A stretch of 64,000 nt of DNA. Origin: Arthrobacter sp. UKPF54-2. Lineage in GTDB: Bacteria; Actinomycetota; Actinomycetes; Actinomycetales; Micrococcaceae. Location of the stretch: assembly GCF_007858535.1 (NCBI RefSeq), contig NZ_CP040174.1:310001-374000 (forward strand), given 5' to 3'. Position 1 is the first letter of the stretch, and each line of letters begins with the position of its first letter. The notes beneath the pieces were generated by a model. It was given only the letters and a program-made list of their open reading frames with translations, was not told the DNA's origin and did not search any database. Shown piece after piece: positions 54,989 through 64,000 of the stretch. A program made the position numbers and the translations under genes.

Positions 54989-55210
54989 TCAATGCATAAT
55001 GCTCTCGGTGCCCCCTTGAAACGGGTCGGTATCCTCGCCTAACTCCAAGCTCACCGAAACAAGCGGGCCCGCTAAATCAGCGACCAGGCGTCGTTCAGTC
55101 TCCCGTGACGCCTCGCGGTCCAGATGCCCAGCTGTCGACGGTCCAGCGCCGAGAACTCCGATGGGCCCTCTGTGCCGAGGTCGCCTCCCTTTGCCGCTAG
55201 GTTGTGACAT
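54989..55210 (-). CDS. Hypothetical 73-residue protein overlapping mcrC
   Basis: ATG at 55208-55210 overlaps the end of mcrC by 14 bp. The product 'MSQPSGKGRRPRHRGPIGVLGAGPSTAG', then 'LDREASRETERRLVADLAGPLVSVSLELGEDTDP', has a basic head and an acidic amphipathic tail. No family is recognised and the ribosome binding site is weak. It may be a small co-translated partner of McrBC or simply non-functional. Confidence 0.4.
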   Translation of the reverse strand: MSQPSGKGRRPRHRGPIGVLGAGPSTAGHLDREASRETERRLVADLAGPLVSVSLELGEDTDPFQGGTESIMH

Positions 55211-56384
55211 TCGAACGGTCGACCATTTTCGCGGCCAGGTTCTGGACCTGTTGAAGTAGGTGCTCCGGCTTTGCCTCGAGGTCCAAGGCATGGCTGTAGA
55301 TGTGAATGTCGGCGCCGTCGATCTGGTGCAGGACCTCATCATTGTCGGCCTTGGCGTAGACAAGATGCCCGACTTTCATTTTGAACCTCGTGCAGTAGGC
55401 AAGCATTTGGTACAAGTCCGCGTTCGGGAACCGTTTGTTCTTTTCGGCCTTGTACTTTGCGTCCAGAACGGCGAGGACCACATCGTCCTTATGCCAGACA
55501 ATGTCCGGGCGAAGGGCGACTTTGGCGCCGACGTCCAAGTGTTTGCCCGCGTATTGCAGATCTATCCTTCCGTCGCTGGAATCCATGGCTTCACGGAGAG
55601 CCACCGAGACGAAATCCTCGAACACTTCCCACATATCGAAGAGGAAGGACCTGGCAGCGACTTCCCCGGCAGGCTGCTCCAAGGAACCATGGCGGAGGAT
55701 GATCTGGGCCAAAATAGCAGCCGGTCGGTAGTGGGCGTTCAAACGGGTAAACAGAATTTCCGGAGGCGCTGCCCCTCGGGCAATGGAGGCCACCCCATCG
55801 AATTTCAGCAGCAGCTTCCGAAGTGACTGCCTGTCCGATTCGGCGAGGCGAGGAACTGTAAGGAGAGTTCTAGCCGCCGACAGCAGGAGGCGGTTCTCGG
55901 CCACGTCCACGGTGTAGTCGTCGTACGAAACCTCGGCAGGCAGGGGCAGACCGGCGCGGCGTCCAATCTGACCCGGCACATCGAGTCTGCCTCGGATCAT
56001 TGGTTCAGCTTCGTGGACAGTTCTGTATCCCTGAAGGAGCCCTTGGACGGTCGCCTTCTTCACCTGCCGGATATATGCGCTGGCGATGCTACTGACCAGC
56101 TCGTCATCAGAGGAAAGGGAAACGTCATCGTCGCGCCAATAACGAGGGGCCTGCGAATATCCCATGAGAAAGAACAGTCGAGACATCGGCATCTTTGGTC
56201 GGATGCTGAGTTCGTCGGACCCGACGGCGATCACGCCAACTTTCGATACCCCCGACACCGTCCACTGACCGCCTCCTTCGGGAAGAGCGGTAGCGATTCC
56301 CAAGGCGTTAATTGCACGGCCCAGCTCGTCCGGCAAAGCCAATTTCTGGCTGGCGCCGCTTTCACGAAGTTCGAAGGTCGCCAA
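55197..56384 (-). CDS. mcrC: McrC-like restriction protein
   Basis: 395 residues from TTG. McrC binds and stimulates the McrB GTPase and carries the nuclease of this type IV, modification-dependent restriction system. The first 150 residues are McrC-like ('IRPKMPMSRLFFLMGYS', 'IRQVKKATVQGLLQGYRTVHE', 'IRGRLDV'). The PD-(D/E)XK nuclease is at the C-terminal side, with Asp294 (RPDIVW) and VLDAKYK (Asp308, Lys310). It starts 3 bp after the mcrB stop. The N-terminal portion is longer than E. coli McrC, so target choice may differ. Confidence 0.92.
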   Translation of the reverse strand: MATFELRESGASQKLALPDELGRAINALGIATALPEGGGQWTVSGVSKVGVIAVGSDELSIRPKMPMSRLFFLMGYSQAPRYWRDDDVSLSSDDELVSSIASAYIRQVKKATVQGLLQGYRTVHEAEPMIRGRLDVPGQIGRRAGLPLPAEVSYDDYTVDVAENRLLLSAARTLLTVPRLAESDRQSLRKLLLKFDGVASIARGAAPPEILFTRLNAHYRPAAILAQIILRHGSLEQPAGEVAARSFLFDMWEVFEDFVSVALREAMDSSDGRIDLQYAGKHLDVGAKVALRPDIVWHKDDVVLAVLDAKYKAEKNKRFPNADLYQMLAYCTRFKMKVGHLVYAKADNDEVLHQIDGADIHIYSHALDLEAKPEHLLQQVQNLAAKMVDRSNVTT

Positions 56385-56387
56385 CGA

Positions 56388-58556
56388 CTATTCCGCCTCG
56401 GCCGGTGCCGTACTCTCACCGATCGTGTCCGTCGGGACACTATTCTTCATGGCGGAACGCTCCGCGCGCAGTGTGTCGATCCTGTATTGCTTCAGTACTT
56501 CCTTACCCTCGCCGTAGTGATGCTCTTCGAGAAGCGGCAGGATTTCCGATGACCAGATGCGGTCCAGAACTTCGTGGGTGAGTTCTCCGCGTTTCGGCAT
56601 CAAGTATGACGGTCCGACGCTGAACGCCGGGTCCTTGATCTTTTTGTTGAGTTGGTTGAGTAGCGCCGCGGGCTCCTGGCCGAGCTTGTTGTGCTGGTGC
56701 GCCTCGAGCCAAGCGCTAAGGACCCCGCTGACAGGTTTATGCGCCGGGTGAAGCTCCCGGAAGGCAAACCGGCGCCGCATCGCCGCGTCCATGAGGGCTA
56801 TGGAGCGGTCCGAGGTATTCATGGTGCCGATAATGAAGAGATTGTCCGGCAGCTCAAAGGGTTCTGCGCTGTATTGGAGATTGATCTTCCGGTGCCTGTA
56901 TTCCAGCAGGAAATAAAGCTCGCCGAAAATCTTTGCGAGGTTACCGCGGTTGATTTCGTCAATGACAAGCACGAAGTTCCGGTGCTTGGCCTTGTTGGCC
57001 TTATCCACGATCCGCCGAAGCGGCCCGTCTTTGAGCTCGTAGCTGAGAGTGCCATTGACGGTGACCGGGCGGTAACCCTGGAAGAAATCTTCGTATGCGT
57101 AGCTCGGATGGAACTGAACCAGCTCCGCTTCGTCGCGTGCAATGTGTTCAGCGAGGGCCATCGCGACGAAGGTCTTGCCTGTACCTGGCGGACCAAACAG
57201 AATCAGTTGGCGCTTGGACTCCAACAAATCCAATGAGTCCTGCAGCCACACTTGGTCGATGAACACCCTCCCGCGCAGGGCGTCGTCTGCCCGCGGGAAA
57301 GGAGTGCGTTCCTCTCCGGGTGCCGGCAGCGGTTCGGCAGGAGGCTCGTCGTCTCCTGCGCCTGAGCCGGTGGGCCTCGGGTTGCTCCCCTTCTTCCACA
57401 GGGGTTTATGTTCCTCGTCATAGAAATCGACGTGTTTGCCGCTCTCCTGCTGCAGACGCAGGCCGATGCTGAACAGGTCCCGGTCAATATCGCCTGTGGA
57501 ATCTGCGTCATGACGGATGAACGCGTTGCGAATCAGACCCTTGTCCTCGTCGGAAAAGCTATCCGTGAAAGTCTCAGGATGGACCATGTACAGCAGAGCA
57601 TTCCGTTGCGTCGGGAAGTTGTGACCTTTCACCCCGAAGACAAAAGATTTCCAGGCCCAAGGATCCTGCAGCACTTCTTGCTGCGCCTCCAGCGTGGCTT
57701 GCAGATAGGCCTCAACCACCGAAATGACTACCACCATCGCTTGGAAGGTGTTGCTATTCATGGCTTGGCCGGGCATAACGACGCCGTTCTTGAGCCCGCT
57801 GAGAACCTGCTCGGGAATGGCAACTGGCTCGTCCAGGGTCTGCAGAACTGCTGAGATTCGTTCGCGTTTTTTGCCGAATCCGATGGCCCGATCCACCGAC
57901 GGAAGCACCTGCCAAGTGACGAGCTCGGCCATCAGCAGCCGAGCGTCATCGGAGGCTTCTGCAAACTGTTGGCGAACCTTCTCGAGGAACGTCCCCTCGC
58001 CCGTGTCAGGAGCATCGATGAACCTCTGCCGGATTTCCGAAATTGCCTCTACCGTCCAAACGTCACGGTCCGGGTCGAACACCGACGTACCGTCGCGAAG
58101 GCCCCGTTGCACGAATAACGCAGTCGTGGTCCGGAAAACATCCTCTGCGGGGTTCCGTGACACGAGCACCGTGCGGAGTTGTTCTGCGCGATTAGCCTTT
58201 CGGGCCGCGGTCTGGGCGGCGCTTAACTTGGCCATCTGCCCGAACAGTTCGTCTGCCCCTGGGTAAAGGTCCAGCGCTTTGACCCCTTCGGGCGTAATGC
58301 GCCAGATCCCGTCCGTCTTGGTCATCCACCCCGCAACAACTAGGCCGATGGAGTCGAAAGACAAGCTTGAGTATCCACGGAGCTGGTTGCTCGGATTGGT
58401 CATAGACTCAGCGGGGCTGAGAGGAACAAGTTCGACGGCGAGTTGGAAGATCCCGTCCGCGTCTTTCGTGTTGGCGACTCCCTCGGAGTGCGCAGCCAAT
58501 ATCTCCAGGACGGCGCGAATGCGCTTTCGACGGTTTGGGCCGGTGCTTTCAGACAT
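56388..58556 (-). CDS. mcrB: McrB-like AAA+ GTPase
   Basis: 722 residues from ATG. The first 430 residues are a long N-terminal region that includes helical segments and a charged Pro-rich linker; it has no DUF3578 or EVE domain that I recognise. The AAA+ core has Walker A GPPGTGKT (455-462), Walker B VLVIDEIN (529-536) and the McrB signature MNTSDRSIALMDAAMRRRF from about 579, linked to GTP preference. It forms the motor of a type IV restriction complex with McrC, cutting DNA with modified cytosine. The different N-terminus suggests another target signal than 5-methylcytosine. Confidence 0.93.
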   Translation of the reverse strand: MSESTGPNRRKRIRAVLEILAAHSEGVANTKDADGIFQLAVELVPLSPAESMTNPSNQLRGYSSLSFDSIGLVVAGWMTKTDGIWRITPEGVKALDLYPGADELFGQMAKLSAAQTAARKANRAEQLRTVLVSRNPAEDVFRTTTALFVQRGLRDGTSVFDPDRDVWTVEAISEIRQRFIDAPDTGEGTFLEKVRQQFAEASDDARLLMAELVTWQVLPSVDRAIGFGKKRERISAVLQTLDEPVAIPEQVLSGLKNGVVMPGQAMNSNTFQAMVVVISVVEAYLQATLEAQQEVLQDPWAWKSFVFGVKGHNFPTQRNALLYMVHPETFTDSFSDEDKGLIRNAFIRHDADSTGDIDRDLFSIGLRLQQESGKHVDFYDEEHKPLWKKGSNPRPTGSGAGDDEPPAEPLPAPGEERTPFPRADDALRGRVFIDQVWLQDSLDLLESKRQLILFGPPGTGKTFVAMALAEHIARDEAELVQFHPSYAYEDFFQGYRPVTVNGTLSYELKDGPLRRIVDKANKAKHRNFVLVIDEINRGNLAKIFGELYFLLEYRHRKINLQYSAEPFELPDNLFIIGTMNTSDRSIALMDAAMRRRFAFRELHPAHKPVSGVLSAWLEAHQHNKLGQEPAALLNQLNKKIKDPAFSVGPSYLMPKRGELTHEVLDRIWSSEILPLLEEHHYGEGKEVLKQYRIDTLRAERSAMKNSVPTDTIGESTAPAEAE

Positions 58557-58609
58557 ATGTTCTCTACGTCCTCTTCGATGTTGCGGAACTGGCGTGGCTA
58601 GCTTTCCAA

Positions 58610-58780
58610 TTACTCCACGATTTCCAGGGCGGGCAGATTTGCGACGATGTTATTGGTCTCCACCGGCGCTGTGACGATGCGCCTGATGAGGTCCAGGATG
58701 TAGCGGGGCTTAGCGGCTTCGCGGCAGTAATCGCGACGGGCACAGGCGCGCGTCGCCGTCTCGCCGGCGGCTTCCCCATG
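58610..58780 (-). pseudogene. Orphan coding tail between mcrB and the DUF6339-like gene
   Basis: In a frame shifted relative to the DUF6339-like gene, the minus strand reads 'GEAAGETATRACARRDYCR' then 'PRYILDLIRRIVTAPVETNNIVANLPALEIVE' and stops at 58610-58612. Third positions are strongly G/C and the composition is protein-like, but no start codon or ribosome binding site is present. It looks like the 3' end of a gene that lost its 5' part, or the true end of the DUF6339-like gene after a frameshift. The parent family was not recognised. Confidence 0.55.
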
Positions 58781-58782
58781 GG

Positions 58783-59562
58783 CTACGCGGGGGCATCTCC
58801 CGCTGCGACGAGGCGACCCACCGCCTCCCCCACAACATCGTCCAAGTAATCGGCGAGAACGCTGTTATGCATCGCGTCCATGGCAATGTGAGACCGTTCC
58901 GCTCGGATCAGTTTGATCGCGTCACGAAGAAGCTCAGCGCGGTTACCCTTAAACCCCTTCATTTCCGCGCGCCACAACACCTGTTTCAACTGCTGCGCGA
59001 GCCTGGCGTTCTTAGCGATCGTCGGGCGCTCCATGATCTGCACGAACTCGTCTTCATTCAAGGGTGCACATGTGGGCGGAACCCATGTGAGATCCGGTCC
59101 CAGCACATGAGCCCGCCACCAGAGCCGGCGCAGGGCGTTGCGCGGCTTCCCCACGAGTCGGTCAGCGTGTCTGGTAGGGAACCGCCAAGGTGCCAGCTCG
59201 GGAACCAGTACTAGGGTGATGAAGGACCACACACCTTCCTCGGCGGCATCTGCCGGAACAATTCCCATGTCGCGGCGAAGGATCGTTCCGCAGATTCGGT
59301 CGAATTCCCCCTGTTTGGATGTCTTGAGTGGCCGAGGGAAGCCGAATTCTTCGCACAGTCCCCGGAGAGTCGTCTGTAGGTCAAGAAGCTGCTGACCGGA
59401 GACCGGGAGGCCCCCCGTGGGTGAGCATCCGGCGTCCGCATGGTGTGTCGCGCCACGTTCTCGGAGTTGTTCCACACTTAGGTCCGCATGTTCGTCGACT
59501 AGCAGAGCAGCACGATGCGCATCGAGCCTGGGGTAAAGAAAAACGAAGTCATTGGCGCTCAA
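58783..59562 (-). CDS. DUF6339-like protein
   Basis: 259 residues from TTG at 59560-59562, behind GAGGA and overlapping the preceding stop as TTGA. Features: 'LSVEQLRERGATHHADAGCSPTGGLPVSGQQLLDLQ', 'DRICGTILRRDMGIVPADAAEEGVWSFITLVLVPELAPWRFPT' and 'GKPRNALRRLWWRAHVLGPD', then a helical C-terminus. I associate this pattern with DUF6339, a family of unknown function found in actinobacterial restriction or defence clusters. There is no obvious catalytic motif. It is embedded in a chain of overlapping genes, so it probably works with the GHKL ATPase and PD-(D/E)XK proteins. Confidence 0.7.
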   Translation of the reverse strand: MSANDFVFLYPRLDAHRAALLVDEHADLSVEQLRERGATHHADAGCSPTGGLPVSGQQLLDLQTTLRGLCEEFGFPRPLKTSKQGEFDRICGTILRRDMGIVPADAAEEGVWSFITLVLVPELAPWRFPTRHADRLVGKPRNALRRLWWRAHVLGPDLTWVPPTCAPLNEDEFVQIMERPTIAKNARLAQQLKQVLWRAEMKGFKGNRAELLRDAIKLIRAERSHIAMDAMHNSVLADYLDDVVGEAVGRLVAAGDAPA

Positions 59563-60449
59563 TTGAATAGTCCTCGATTCTGTTGAATTCTGGCTTCGAA
59601 GGCGCCTGTGTCGTTTGCGAATTCGTGGGCCAGAAGCTCCACCGGGACGTCCGGCCACAGCAGCGCCAAGCTTGCTCGGAGGCCACCAGCTACGCTCAAG
59701 TCATCAAAGTCCGTATCGCCGTCCAGCACCTCGGGCATGGAGAGACCCGCCGAAGCGATTCTCCTCGACACGTCGACGTCAATCATTCTCTGGATTTGTG
59801 CGGTTGCCGCATCTTTCGCACCGCTGAGGAGCCTCTGAATCTCTGGGCGACCCGAGTTCAACACGACCTTGATATTGGATAGGAACAGTGCGTGCGGATC
59901 CGTCGCGTCCACGTGAATGAACCATCCCGCGTGATCCAGTTTGGGTCGAGTGACACTGAAGTCCTCCGCGTACGTGGGGAACTGGGCGCCAATACCTTGA
60001 AGATACGTCTTCTGCGTAGCCGTCCAAAGAATCGAGCCCTGCTTTGAGGGAGCTAGTCCGTCCGTTGGCTCGGCGACCGTCACTACGACCTGGGTTGTCA
60101 CTGCCAAGCGCCGGGCGAAGTGCTGACCGGGGACCTCGACGGTGAGGGCACGGACGTCATTCCAGCCAGCTGGGACGTCAACTAGTGCCAGGACACTTTC
60201 GGTGCTCGTGGCTTCAGAGGAAGCCGTCACAAGCACCCCGAGCCTACTCCCGGGACCCAAGTGGACTTCGGACAAGATTTGCGCTTCGTCCAGGGTTATG
60301 AATGCAGACAGAATCAGCCGAGTCTGGTAGTCCCAGTGCTCGAGCTCTTCCGGCAGTGGAACGTTATCGTCGCCGAGCTGCTGGTACCAGCCATCAAAGG
60401 AAATGCTCTCCGATGTTGGAACCAAAAACGGCGGTACTTTGACTTTCAA
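59559..60449 (-). CDS. Uncharacterised protein of the defence operon, 296 residues
   Basis: Start TTG at 60447-60449 behind GGAG, overlapping the previous stop as TTGA; its own stop overlaps the next TTG in the same way. The sequence has a strand-rich first half ('SILWTATQKTYLQG', 'GWFIHVDATDPHALFLSNIKVVLNSG') and a helical C-terminal half ('EIQRLLSGAKDAATAQIQRMIDVDVSRRIASA'). I do not recognise a family or active-site motif. The double 4-bp overlap means it is obligately co-translated with its neighbours and is probably a complex subunit. It is a good candidate for an unnamed component. Confidence 0.85.
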   Translation of the reverse strand: MKVKVPPFLVPTSESISFDGWYQQLGDDNVPLPEELEHWDYQTRLILSAFITLDEAQILSEVHLGPGSRLGVLVTASSEATSTESVLALVDVPAGWNDVRALTVEVPGQHFARRLAVTTQVVVTVAEPTDGLAPSKQGSILWTATQKTYLQGIGAQFPTYAEDFSVTRPKLDHAGWFIHVDATDPHALFLSNIKVVLNSGRPEIQRLLSGAKDAATAQIQRMIDVDVSRRIASAGLSMPEVLDGDTDFDDLSVAGGLRASLALLWPDVPVELLAHEFANDTGAFEARIQQNRGLFN

Positions 60450-62305
60450 TTTTGTTCTCCCACACCGACGGCAGCATCGACGTCCCACAGAACGCTCATG
60501 CGTCCCGAATTGGCCGCTTCCAGCACAACCCTATGCTTGTGCGTGCCTTCGAGAATGATCTCGGAGTTGATGCCATGCACATCAAAGTCGACGCCGTTGG
60601 CGCTGACTTTGCGCAGGTGCAGAGTCTTGTCGAGCGACGCATCGAGACCGGTTCCGTCCAGAGCTATCCCCACGTTTACCTGCAGGGCGGTCCGTGCACT
60701 GCCTGCGGCCGGGACGACGTCAATGACCGCTCGGGATACGTGCAGCCCGTCAACGATCTCAACGGTCGAACCCACCAAGGCGAGTGAAGGTCGTGCCGCC
60801 GAGTGACTGGGAGAGGGCGCGGTTCTGACTTTTCGGCCCTTTCCTTGACCCGCTTTGCCAAGGACCAAATGGCCCAAAGCGTCCGCTATGCCTGCTGTGC
60901 TGACAGCGCCCTTCGTGGGGGGCGGAGCAATTGTTCCCCAGCGCTCTGTTACAGCTCTTTGAATGTCTCGCAGCACTTTCCGAAGGATGTTCTTCTCCAT
61001 CCTGTCGTCCACAGTGTCCGGATTCCATGCGTCGTGCGTGGGCGGCTCAGCCCGGGCAAAAATTCCGTCGAATTCATCCGCGGCACGGAAGACCCCGGCC
61101 CATTCGACCGCAGGGTCGGGTGCAATCGGACCCGCTAGGTATTCAATAACGAGCTCCGGGCCGCGGAGCAAGGCGACATGGTGGGCGGCCGAGTTCGTGA
61201 ATGGGGACGCCGGGTGCGGCGACTCGTCGTCGTCCGGATCATGCCCGTCGTCCACAACTGCTCGCTGTTCCCGCGCGAACGGAACCGTACCGAGGTGGCC
61301 CAAAGTCATCTTCTTCGGTGTGCTTCGCTCAATTGCACGCTTCTGGAAAGTAAGCGAGGCTTCCTCCCCCATGACTAAGTCCTGATAGGCCTCGACAAAC
61401 CTGGCCAGCGGCGGGCGGCTGGTGAAAGCGGGAATTGGGACTTGAACACCGTCATGTCGGACGGAACAATGCAGGGGCGCCACTCCGTCTTTCCGCGGAA
61501 CGAGTTTGGGCCAAAGGTGCCACAGAATCGATTCAGTGAGGAAGGTAACGGCTTGCCCCGGCGTCCGTTGTCCGAGGTCGGGGGAAACGATCATGACGTT
61601 GGTGCCAAGTTCCCCATCCTTGAACGCCGGCATGCCGAGGCGCGCGGCCAAAGCCTCGGCGGCTGCGCCTTCAATGGGCAGCGGCGCACCATCACCGTTG
61701 ACCCCCCACCAGTGGCGACCGGTGAAGTTCTTGCCGTCTCGAACGAAGCGGTTGCCGATTGCGGCTGCAATCAAGCGAGTGACAGTCTTACCGCGGTGTG
61801 TTGTCCGACTGTGGATTATCACGGAATTGGCTTGGGAGACGACGTAAGCAATCGTCTTGCCGAACCCGTAAGTTCCCCCTGTGTTGCCTTCCGTCTTTGA
61901 CTTGCCGGCATTCAGGACGAAATTCGCCCAGTTCTGTTTGCCGTCGGTTGATACTTCATCGGCGGTCGCCGGTCCGTCCAACCCTCGGGTGCCGCGGTCG
62001 GACACTATTAGCACGTGCAGCTCACGGTCATTGAGTGCTTGGCTCAGCAGTGTTCCTTGGACGTCAGCGGCGCTCTGGAAGACTTCCGCCCGCAGCACTT
62101 CTCTGAATCCATCCGTTGCCTGCCGAAGGTCCAAGTCGAAACGCACGGTGCGAGCACCATGAGGTCGGGCATCCCAGCTGTTCTGAGCAGTCTCTCGTAC
62201 CAGCACCGTCAGAGGGTCAAGCGAGGGTCGGCCTAATAGCTTGTAGAAACCCTCCGCGGACAGGCCACCGCTCGGGGGGAGTCGCTCGGGGATCCATTCA
62301 AGCAT
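60446..62305 (-). CDS. GHKL-type (Hsp90/MutL/MORC-like) ATPase of the defence operon
   Basis: 619 residues from ATG at 62303-62305 behind GGGAGG. The Bergerat ATP-binding fold is clear: motif I ETAQNSWDA (Glu38, Asn42, Asp45), motif II SDRGTRG (Asp103, Gly105) and motif III GGTYGFGK (143-150). The rest (about 250-619) is a long middle/transducer-like region with no further motif I can name. Such ATPases act as conformational switches in MORC, MutL and several phage-defence systems. Here it overlaps the upstream PD-(D/E)XK gene by 8 bp and the next gene by 4 bp, so it likely forms a complex with the nuclease. Confidence 0.88.
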   Translation of the reverse strand: MLEWIPERLPPSGGLSAEGFYKLLGRPSLDPLTVLVRETAQNSWDARPHGARTVRFDLDLRQATDGFREVLRAEVFQSAADVQGTLLSQALNDRELHVLIVSDRGTRGLDGPATADEVSTDGKQNWANFVLNAGKSKTEGNTGGTYGFGKTIAYVVSQANSVIIHSRTTHRGKTVTRLIAAAIGNRFVRDGKNFTGRHWWGVNGDGAPLPIEGAAAEALAARLGMPAFKDGELGTNVMIVSPDLGQRTPGQAVTFLTESILWHLWPKLVPRKDGVAPLHCSVRHDGVQVPIPAFTSRPPLARFVEAYQDLVMGEEASLTFQKRAIERSTPKKMTLGHLGTVPFAREQRAVVDDGHDPDDDESPHPASPFTNSAAHHVALLRGPELVIEYLAGPIAPDPAVEWAGVFRAADEFDGIFARAEPPTHDAWNPDTVDDRMEKNILRKVLRDIQRAVTERWGTIAPPPTKGAVSTAGIADALGHLVLGKAGQGKGRKVRTAPSPSHSAARPSLALVGSTVEIVDGLHVSRAVIDVVPAAGSARTALQVNVGIALDGTGLDASLDKTLHLRKVSANGVDFDVHGINSEIILEGTHKHRVVLEAANSGRMSVLWDVDAAVGVGEQN

Positions 62306-63311
62306 CAGTGGTTCCTCCCGCCAGGCACATATAGAGGGCATCGAGCTGGGTCTGCGAAAGCGAGGCGTTCAACTGCCCCGCCAAGTCGATGACGTAGCTG
62401 ATTTGCTCCACTCCATCAGGGACTTGAGCTTGGGCAAACTTCCCAGGAACAATCCGGGGGAACGCTGGTTCCGTCACGTCAAAAGTGTGTTCAGTCGAGA
62501 TGCTGAGAGTGTATGCCCCGTAAATGTCCTCGAAGCCGGCTCGGTACCCTGCCCTCAGCAGAAGAAGTTCAAATTCAAGCGGATCGACATTGAGTGCTTT
62601 GATCCGACGAACTGCCTTTGGCAGCGAGTCGCCCTCGGGGGCGAGTAAGAACTTGAAAAGGCTCAAATAGAGCGTGCTGTTGCTCGGTTCGTTGAGCTGT
62701 TCGACACTACTGATTTTGGTTCGATGTCCCTCGCGGGCGAGGGAGGCCTTGACTTCCAAGGCATGCCCACTCACTCTGAAGTCGTGTTGTGATTTAGAAG
62801 GCCCGGACCAGACAGCCAATCCTCGCGCGCGGTCCCGAGACAGGATTCGCTCCAACGTAAGCAATTCCGCAAGCAGCCCAGCGGCCTGCGGAAGCGTCAG
62901 CAATCCGGACAATTTCGTCCGCGCAAAAAGCTCTCTCCAATGTTCGACATGGTCTGTCAAAACCCCTGCACAGGGTCCGGAGGATGGCAGACGTCGGACC
63001 AAGTCGCGAACAAAAATGATGAAAACGTCGTTCAGATCCGAGTCGACACATGTGACAGATGCATACGACTTTCCTTTGACAAGAGTTCGCTCCAAACGAA
63101 TGGCTGCGCCGCCCAACTGGTCCGCGAACGCCTCACCACTGAGCAGCGGAACAAGCACCGTGAACTGCCCCGCCGGATTGGCTGCAGCGATGAGCGGGCC
63201 AGCCTCGATAGCTGGCCCCAACGTGTGCATATAGAGCTCGGCCGAGCCTTGAACGGCTAAGGAGTGGACCACGTTCCAGATTGACTCAAAGGAATACTGG
63301 CTAGCCGTCAA
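62298..63311 (-). CDS. PD-(D/E)XK motif protein (DUF4420 type)
   Basis: 337 residues from TTG at 63309-63311, overlapping the upstream gene by 11 bp. The nuclease core is 'LLAELLTLERIL' (Glu near 149-154), HDF (Asp177) and LEVKAS (Glu186, Lys188), a PD-(D/E)XK arrangement. DUF4420 proteins of about 330 residues are repeatedly found next to Z1-domain proteins, C5-methyltransferases and Vsr-type nucleases. It is the probable DNA-cutting subunit of the operon. The start codon is set by the overlap and by AGGTG upstream. Confidence 0.85.
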   Translation of the reverse strand: MTASQYSFESIWNVVHSLAVQGSAELYMHTLGPAIEAGPLIAAANPAGQFTVLVPLLSGEAFADQLGGAAIRLERTLVKGKSYASVTCVDSDLNDVFIIFVRDLVRRLPSSGPCAGVLTDHVEHWRELFARTKLSGLLTLPQAAGLLAELLTLERILSRDRARGLAVWSGPSKSQHDFRVSGHALEVKASLAREGHRTKISSVEQLNEPSNSTLYLSLFKFLLAPEGDSLPKAVRRIKALNVDPLEFELLLLRAGYRAGFEDIYGAYTLSISTEHTFDVTEPAFPRIVPGKFAQAQVPDGVEQISYVIDLAGQLNASLSQTQLDALYMCLAGGTTDA

Positions 63312-64000
63312 GAGACACCTGATTCAGGGTGTTCTCGGTATCAACGTACACATCTTCATCAACGTCCTCGTCCGACGTCGCGGTGATGGTGCTGCTGTCC
63401 AGCTTGCCCAAGTCAACGTGCATCATGTCCTTTGGCTCAGAGCCAGGAGCTGCGGCGGGCAGGCACATCGCCAAGCCGACGAGCGGACCAACCGCATCCA
63501 GCTGAACCCTCTTTTCGCCCTTTCCGTTGGTTTCTGGATTAGCGCCCTCGGACGTCGATGCGGGTTTCGAGTTCGGCGCGATCGGGTATATCAGCAGCAG
63601 AGGCGTGCCGCATTCGTTTCGGGCTTTTACGATGGCTGAAGTGGACGATGGATGACGATCCAGGTCCAGAGTGAAGTCCGACGTCGACGTGATCGCCTTG
63701 AGGTAGGCAGGACTGTCTTCCCAGTCCTCCCGAGCACCCACGACGACGCGTGAACGCCCGATCGGGTGGAAGGGGCGCACAAGTCCCATGCTGACGTCGT
63801 CGTAGTCGGGATGCGGCGTGTCCCGAGAGACCACGGCTACATTCCACGAAACGAGCCTCCCGAATTCGACCTGGCGCCGGACGTATTCGGTCAGCAGGTT
63901 CCCACCCATTTCCGAAGACGAGTGGAACGAGTACTGGCTCAAGAAACTCAACACACCCTCCGCCGAGACATCCTTGAGCAGGAGAGAGCCTGGGTGCATG
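63301..64000 (-). CDS. C-terminal part of a Z1-domain-like protein, cut by window edge
   Basis: The frame is open to the right edge, so the gene starts outside. The visible 232 or so residues contain 'SFLSQYSFHSSSEMGGNLLTEYVRRQVEFGRLVSWNVAVVSRDTPHPDYDDVSMGLVRPFHPIGRSRVVVGAREDWED' and end with an acidic tail ('DEDVDEDVYVDTENTLNQVSLDG'). Order and partners (DUF4420 nuclease directly after) suggest the C-terminus of a Z1-domain ATPase/endonuclease. The N-terminal ATPase motifs cannot be seen, so this rests on context and weak similarity from memory. Confidence 0.6.
   Translation of the reverse strand, partial: MHPGSLLLKDVSAEGVLSFLSQYSFHSSSEMGGNLLTEYVRRQVEFGRLVSWNVAVVSRDTPHPDYDDVSMGLVRPFHPIGRSRVVVGAREDWEDSPAYLKAITSTSDFTLDLDRHPSSTSAIVKARNECGTPLLLIYPIAPNSKPASTSEGANPETNGKGEKRVQLDAVGPLVGLAMCLPAAAPGSEPKDMMHVDLGKLDSSTITATSDEDVDEDVYVDTENTLNQVSLDG

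Follow-up and report, generated by a model that had tools for sequence, protein, structure and literature searches.

Do the overlapping genes that close the 64,000-nucleotide stretch of Arthrobacter sp. UKPF54-2 analysed here (the window; contig NZ_CP040174.1, positions 310,001 to 374,000) form one defence system, and which of them belong to it? The original prediction had read them as an overlapping defence operon made of a Z1-like protein, a PD-(D/E)XK nuclease, a GHKL ATPase, a protein of no recognisable family (here P4), a DUF6339-like protein and an McrBC pair. The first five genes recur as a group in many other bacteria with their order unchanged, usually beside a C5-methyltransferase, and this order, which was to be sought in actinobacteria, is conserved in a set of 48 loci that reaches beyond them.

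A conserved unit of five genes

The distances between loci, computed on the first 32 of the 48, correlate strongly in all pairwise comparisons within the set of five (r 0.886 to 0.961; 29-32 loci) and weakly between these genes and the methyltransferase (r 0.394 to 0.506; 25-26 loci), and none of 2000 permutations reached the observed r in any pair, methyltransferase pairs included. This indicates that the five genes travel together, while the methyltransferase module is swapped more freely. Both the conserved order and the co-divergence span Actinomycetota, Alphaproteobacteria and Cyanobacteriota and, given these two properties, the genes can be regarded as one system with defined parts. The operon is real and conserved and probably of restriction type, and the five genes probably form one anti-virus machine.

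The five-gene unit of the proposed operon thus stands, whereas the membership of McrBC does not. The pair adjoins the five genes in one of the 48 loci, and 226 bp separate the McrB gene from the DUF6339 gene. The McrB-type protein matches the NCBIfam McrB model below its equivalog cut-off (1.1e-41, 143 bits against 637), and phmmer finds no counterpart of it in any of the 47 remaining stretches, while McrC occurs in 5 of the 32 genomes searched and adjoins the five only in the genome studied here. McrBC is incidental to the operon. The genome has a second McrC gene (G000:C1:462545-463453), some 97 kb from the first.

Table 1. Genes of the locus, in whole-window coordinates
Gene	Coordinates	Strand	Remark
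Z1/SF2 helicase	63301..64000	-	PF10593 E 4.7e-59
PD-(D/E)XK (DUF4420) nuclease, 337 aa	62298..63311	-	PF14390 E 5.4e-45
paraMORC2-type GHKL ATPase, 619 aa	60446..62305	-	alternative start 62341
P4, 296-aa protein without named family	59559..60449	-	
DUF6339 protein, 259 aa, all-alpha	58783..59562	-	
McrB-type AAA+ ATPase; neighbour, outside core	56388..58556	-	AAA_5 E 2.6e-23
McrC-type nuclease; neighbour, outside core	55197..56384	-	PF10117 E 5.3e-55

The five proteins

The assignments originally made for the Z1-type protein and for the nuclease agree with the Pfam matches in Table 1. In the helicase, the Walker A motif GxVQSGKT and the DDExD box are kept in 31 of 31 aligned rows, as is the motif D[T/S]xxQx[GAS]RxFG, with T in 23 rows and S in 8, the protein of the window having S. 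The nuclease, whose fold assignment is taken from Pfam DUF4420, keeps E149, D177, E186 and K188 in 29/29 rows. For the GHKL ATPase no Pfam or NCBIfam match was obtained at E<=0.1; the protein matches PADLOC PDC-M33A (E 4.4e-18), and its core residues E38, N42, D103 and G108, together with an ExxxH motif (E420, H424), are kept in 32-33 of 33 rows. The wider motif EPxxHDxW is present in 33/33 rows and would lie in the S5 domain. The diverged GHKL protein of locus L061 bears an N-terminal HTH_3 domain (E 1e-10).

P4, which fits no named family, is found in 48/48 loci; a single query against 5.8e9 proteins returned 13 homologues, and a profile at least 25 among the 8000 candidates scored. Its AlphaFold2 model (pLDDT 88.7, pTM 0.57) predicts an Ig-like beta-sandwich with a helical C-terminus. 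DUF6339 has 301 homologues, the 120 listed carrying precomputed PF19866, and is modelled with pLDDT 94.7 and pTM 0.90. In L050 and L052 it shares one open reading frame (ORF), of 614 aa in each, with a C5-methyltransferase domain downstream of it (PF00145, E 6e-38, and phmmer, E 5.8e-28, respectively). The PC of motif IV is replaced in both (GGLPR), with zero PC dipeptides and ENV retained, so that the fused domain, judged from this one motif, would be inactive. In eight loci (L023-L030) DUF6339 bears a different C-terminal tail, mutually related among them and of winged-helix appearance by eye (Pfam E 0.0049 in L027, none in L025), and those of L017, L051, L053 and L055 have still other tails. 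Given these fusions and the HTH_3 domain of L061, the data point to DNA recognition near DUF6339, which is the strongest hint obtained.

Methyltransferase neighbours and surroundings

A C5-methyltransferase was found in the locus studied here and in 39/48 stretches. Vsr is present in 32/48 loci, an MzaB homologue in 21/48, EcoRII in 3/48 and McrBC in 1/48, these being phmmer counts that may miss remote homologues. Two main neighbour modules exist. Methyltransferases of at least 576 aa are accompanied by an MzaB homologue in 19/19 loci and those of 366-556 aa in 0/18, a comparison that omits L041 and L042, where the methyltransferase ORFs are cut by the stretch end and MzaB is present. PCQ is found in 36 of the 41 neighbouring methyltransferase ORFs (31 with the full motif, 5 with PCQ only), PCP in one and neither in four, two of them incomplete. 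One large enzyme, L005:10740-12707, has a C-terminal MutY/EndoIII-like Fe-S signature (TIGR01084, E 4.7e-7, 610-651; PRK10880, E 2.7e-4, 531-650; PF10576, E 0.0029), this being the one of the 19 of at least 576 aa that was scanned for it, and may be a fusion of a methylase with a glycosylase-like domain.

A C5-methyltransferase and a Vsr-type nuclease had been named as possible neighbours just beyond position 64,000. The former is present; in place of the latter there is an EcoRII-C nuclease (PF09019, E 7.2e-60), and neither Vsr nor MzaB was found in this stretch by phmmer. The methyltransferase is of Dcm type (TIGR00675 dcm, 304.9 bits, above the cut-off of 100.65; PRK10458, 445.5 bits, under that of 710) and has an intact PCQ (GGFPCQPFS) and ENV. 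The site specificity of the EcoRII family is CCWGG. The EcoRII-C loci are L002, L041, L042 and, through its extension L044, L008; L041 and L042 are similar in gene content, and the L044 proteins are 63% (Dcm) and 43% (EcoRII) identical to the pair studied here. In the class sample EcoRII-C was seen in the present genome and in 1/295 others (G880), where a Dcm-EcoRII-Vsr cluster stands with none of the five genes in the 30 kb covered, which suggests that the pair is able to work by itself. A 20-bp palindrome-like repeat with 10-bp arms, 90% complementary (L002:16495-16514), precedes the Dcm gene, which bears a helix-turn-helix, by about 55 bp and is possibly an autoregulatory operator.

The island is flanked by NrtR-like and ADP-ribosylglycohydrolase-like genes, named by eye (L002:19148-19843, L003:893-2386), which have strong matches beside L008 too; the two islands possibly share an insertion hotspot. 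Further out (L003:2432-10142; 72432-80142 if the window is extended) follow a NERD-UvrD helicase, a 912-aa protein without firm family and an AddA/RecB-like helicase, and homologues of NERD-UvrD occur in the vicinity of L010, L013, L015 and, weakly, L038. The Arthrobacter stretch L044:1-20000 is a dense defence island, where an MZA-like operon and the five genes stand in tandem, accompanied by Dcm-EcoRII, a ZorD/DpdE-like helicase (L044:11121-12908), a third methyltransferase and a second homologue of MzaB.

Known systems and rival explanations

MZA is reportedly an anti-phage system, MzaA-E, set out by Gao in 2020. The helicase and the nuclease are homologous to MzaC (NF041933; E 2.9e-109, 366 bits) and MzaD (NF041934; E 8.5e-25, 87.6 bits), far under the NCBIfam cut-offs of 1500 and 420. 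The best match to MzaB in the genome (E 0.048) lies elsewhere on the chromosome, MzaE (AIPR) has no match there at E<=10, and no match named MzaA appeared in general library scans, whether the libraries hold its model being unchecked. Besides M33A, PDC-M33 includes M33C (PDLC04586), matched at E<=10 by 19 of 40 DUF6339 family members (best 1.6e-8) and not by that of the window, and M33B, which has 289 positions, about the length of P4; P4 itself and 0/36 of its relatives give no M33B match at E<=10, although HMMER filters drop most weak matches and distant kinship is possible.

Passages of Iyer, Abhiman and Aravind 2008 (PMC2292703) describe a third operon type with an SF2 helicase, an RE-fold protein, MORC/paraMORC, a C5-methylase and Vsr. 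Shared with it are the helicase with DThhQXuRhFG, the partner with E-D-ExK, the GHKL protein bearing the ExxxH signature of paraMORC2 and the C5-methylase neighbours. These passages, however, name neither P4 nor DUF6339 as a fixed partner, although Figure 2 of that paper may draw unnamed genes, and they place EcoRII-like nucleases in the second, SWI2/SNF2 type. Passages of PMC5379612 (2017) report the same gene set without McrBC in one Corynebacterium strain, undecided between chance neighbours and "a novel, multicomponent defense system"; island CDBH8_0988-0994 of Corynebacterium diphtheriae BH8, with three unclassified proteins, is likened by description. An assembly of unrelated defence-island genes by chance would suit surroundings rich in defence genes, but is contradicted by order and co-divergence across such distant groups and is highly improbable.

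It is possible, if doubtful, that the five genes act independently of methylation, for example by abortive infection or DNA-structure sensing, with Dcm-EcoRII as an unrelated type II restriction-modification system in the same island. The weak co-divergence of the methyltransferase (r 0.39-0.51), its varying kind among loci and the solitary G880 cluster, with the only other EcoRII-C in the class sample, agree with this, whereas the frequency of C5-methyltransferases, the presence at four loci of so rare a nuclease as EcoRII-C and the two DUF6339 fusions argue against it. A modification-dependent, type IV-like attack on C5-methylated invaders together with McrBC is unlikely, given that the McrB-/McrC-like pair downstream is not conserved with the five, and that self-methylating loci would target their own DNA unless the sequence context differs. 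Repair of 5-methylcytosine damage (VSP/MutL-like), with no role in defence, is quite improbable: the frequent Vsr, the MutL/MORC-type MzaB homologues and the MutY-like signature of a large methyltransferase would suit it, but the distribution is sporadic (5/396, 16/394), some loci are plasmid-borne, and the stretch studied here lacks Vsr and MzaB matches.

For the probable anti-virus machine of five genes, the fixed presence of P4 and DUF6339 as subunits would be new, as it is not set out in the literature consulted on such operons. Two conserved subunits gain a testable role. MORC-type ATPases silence genes in eukaryotes, and with this operon they gain a compact bacterial model tied to C5-methylation.
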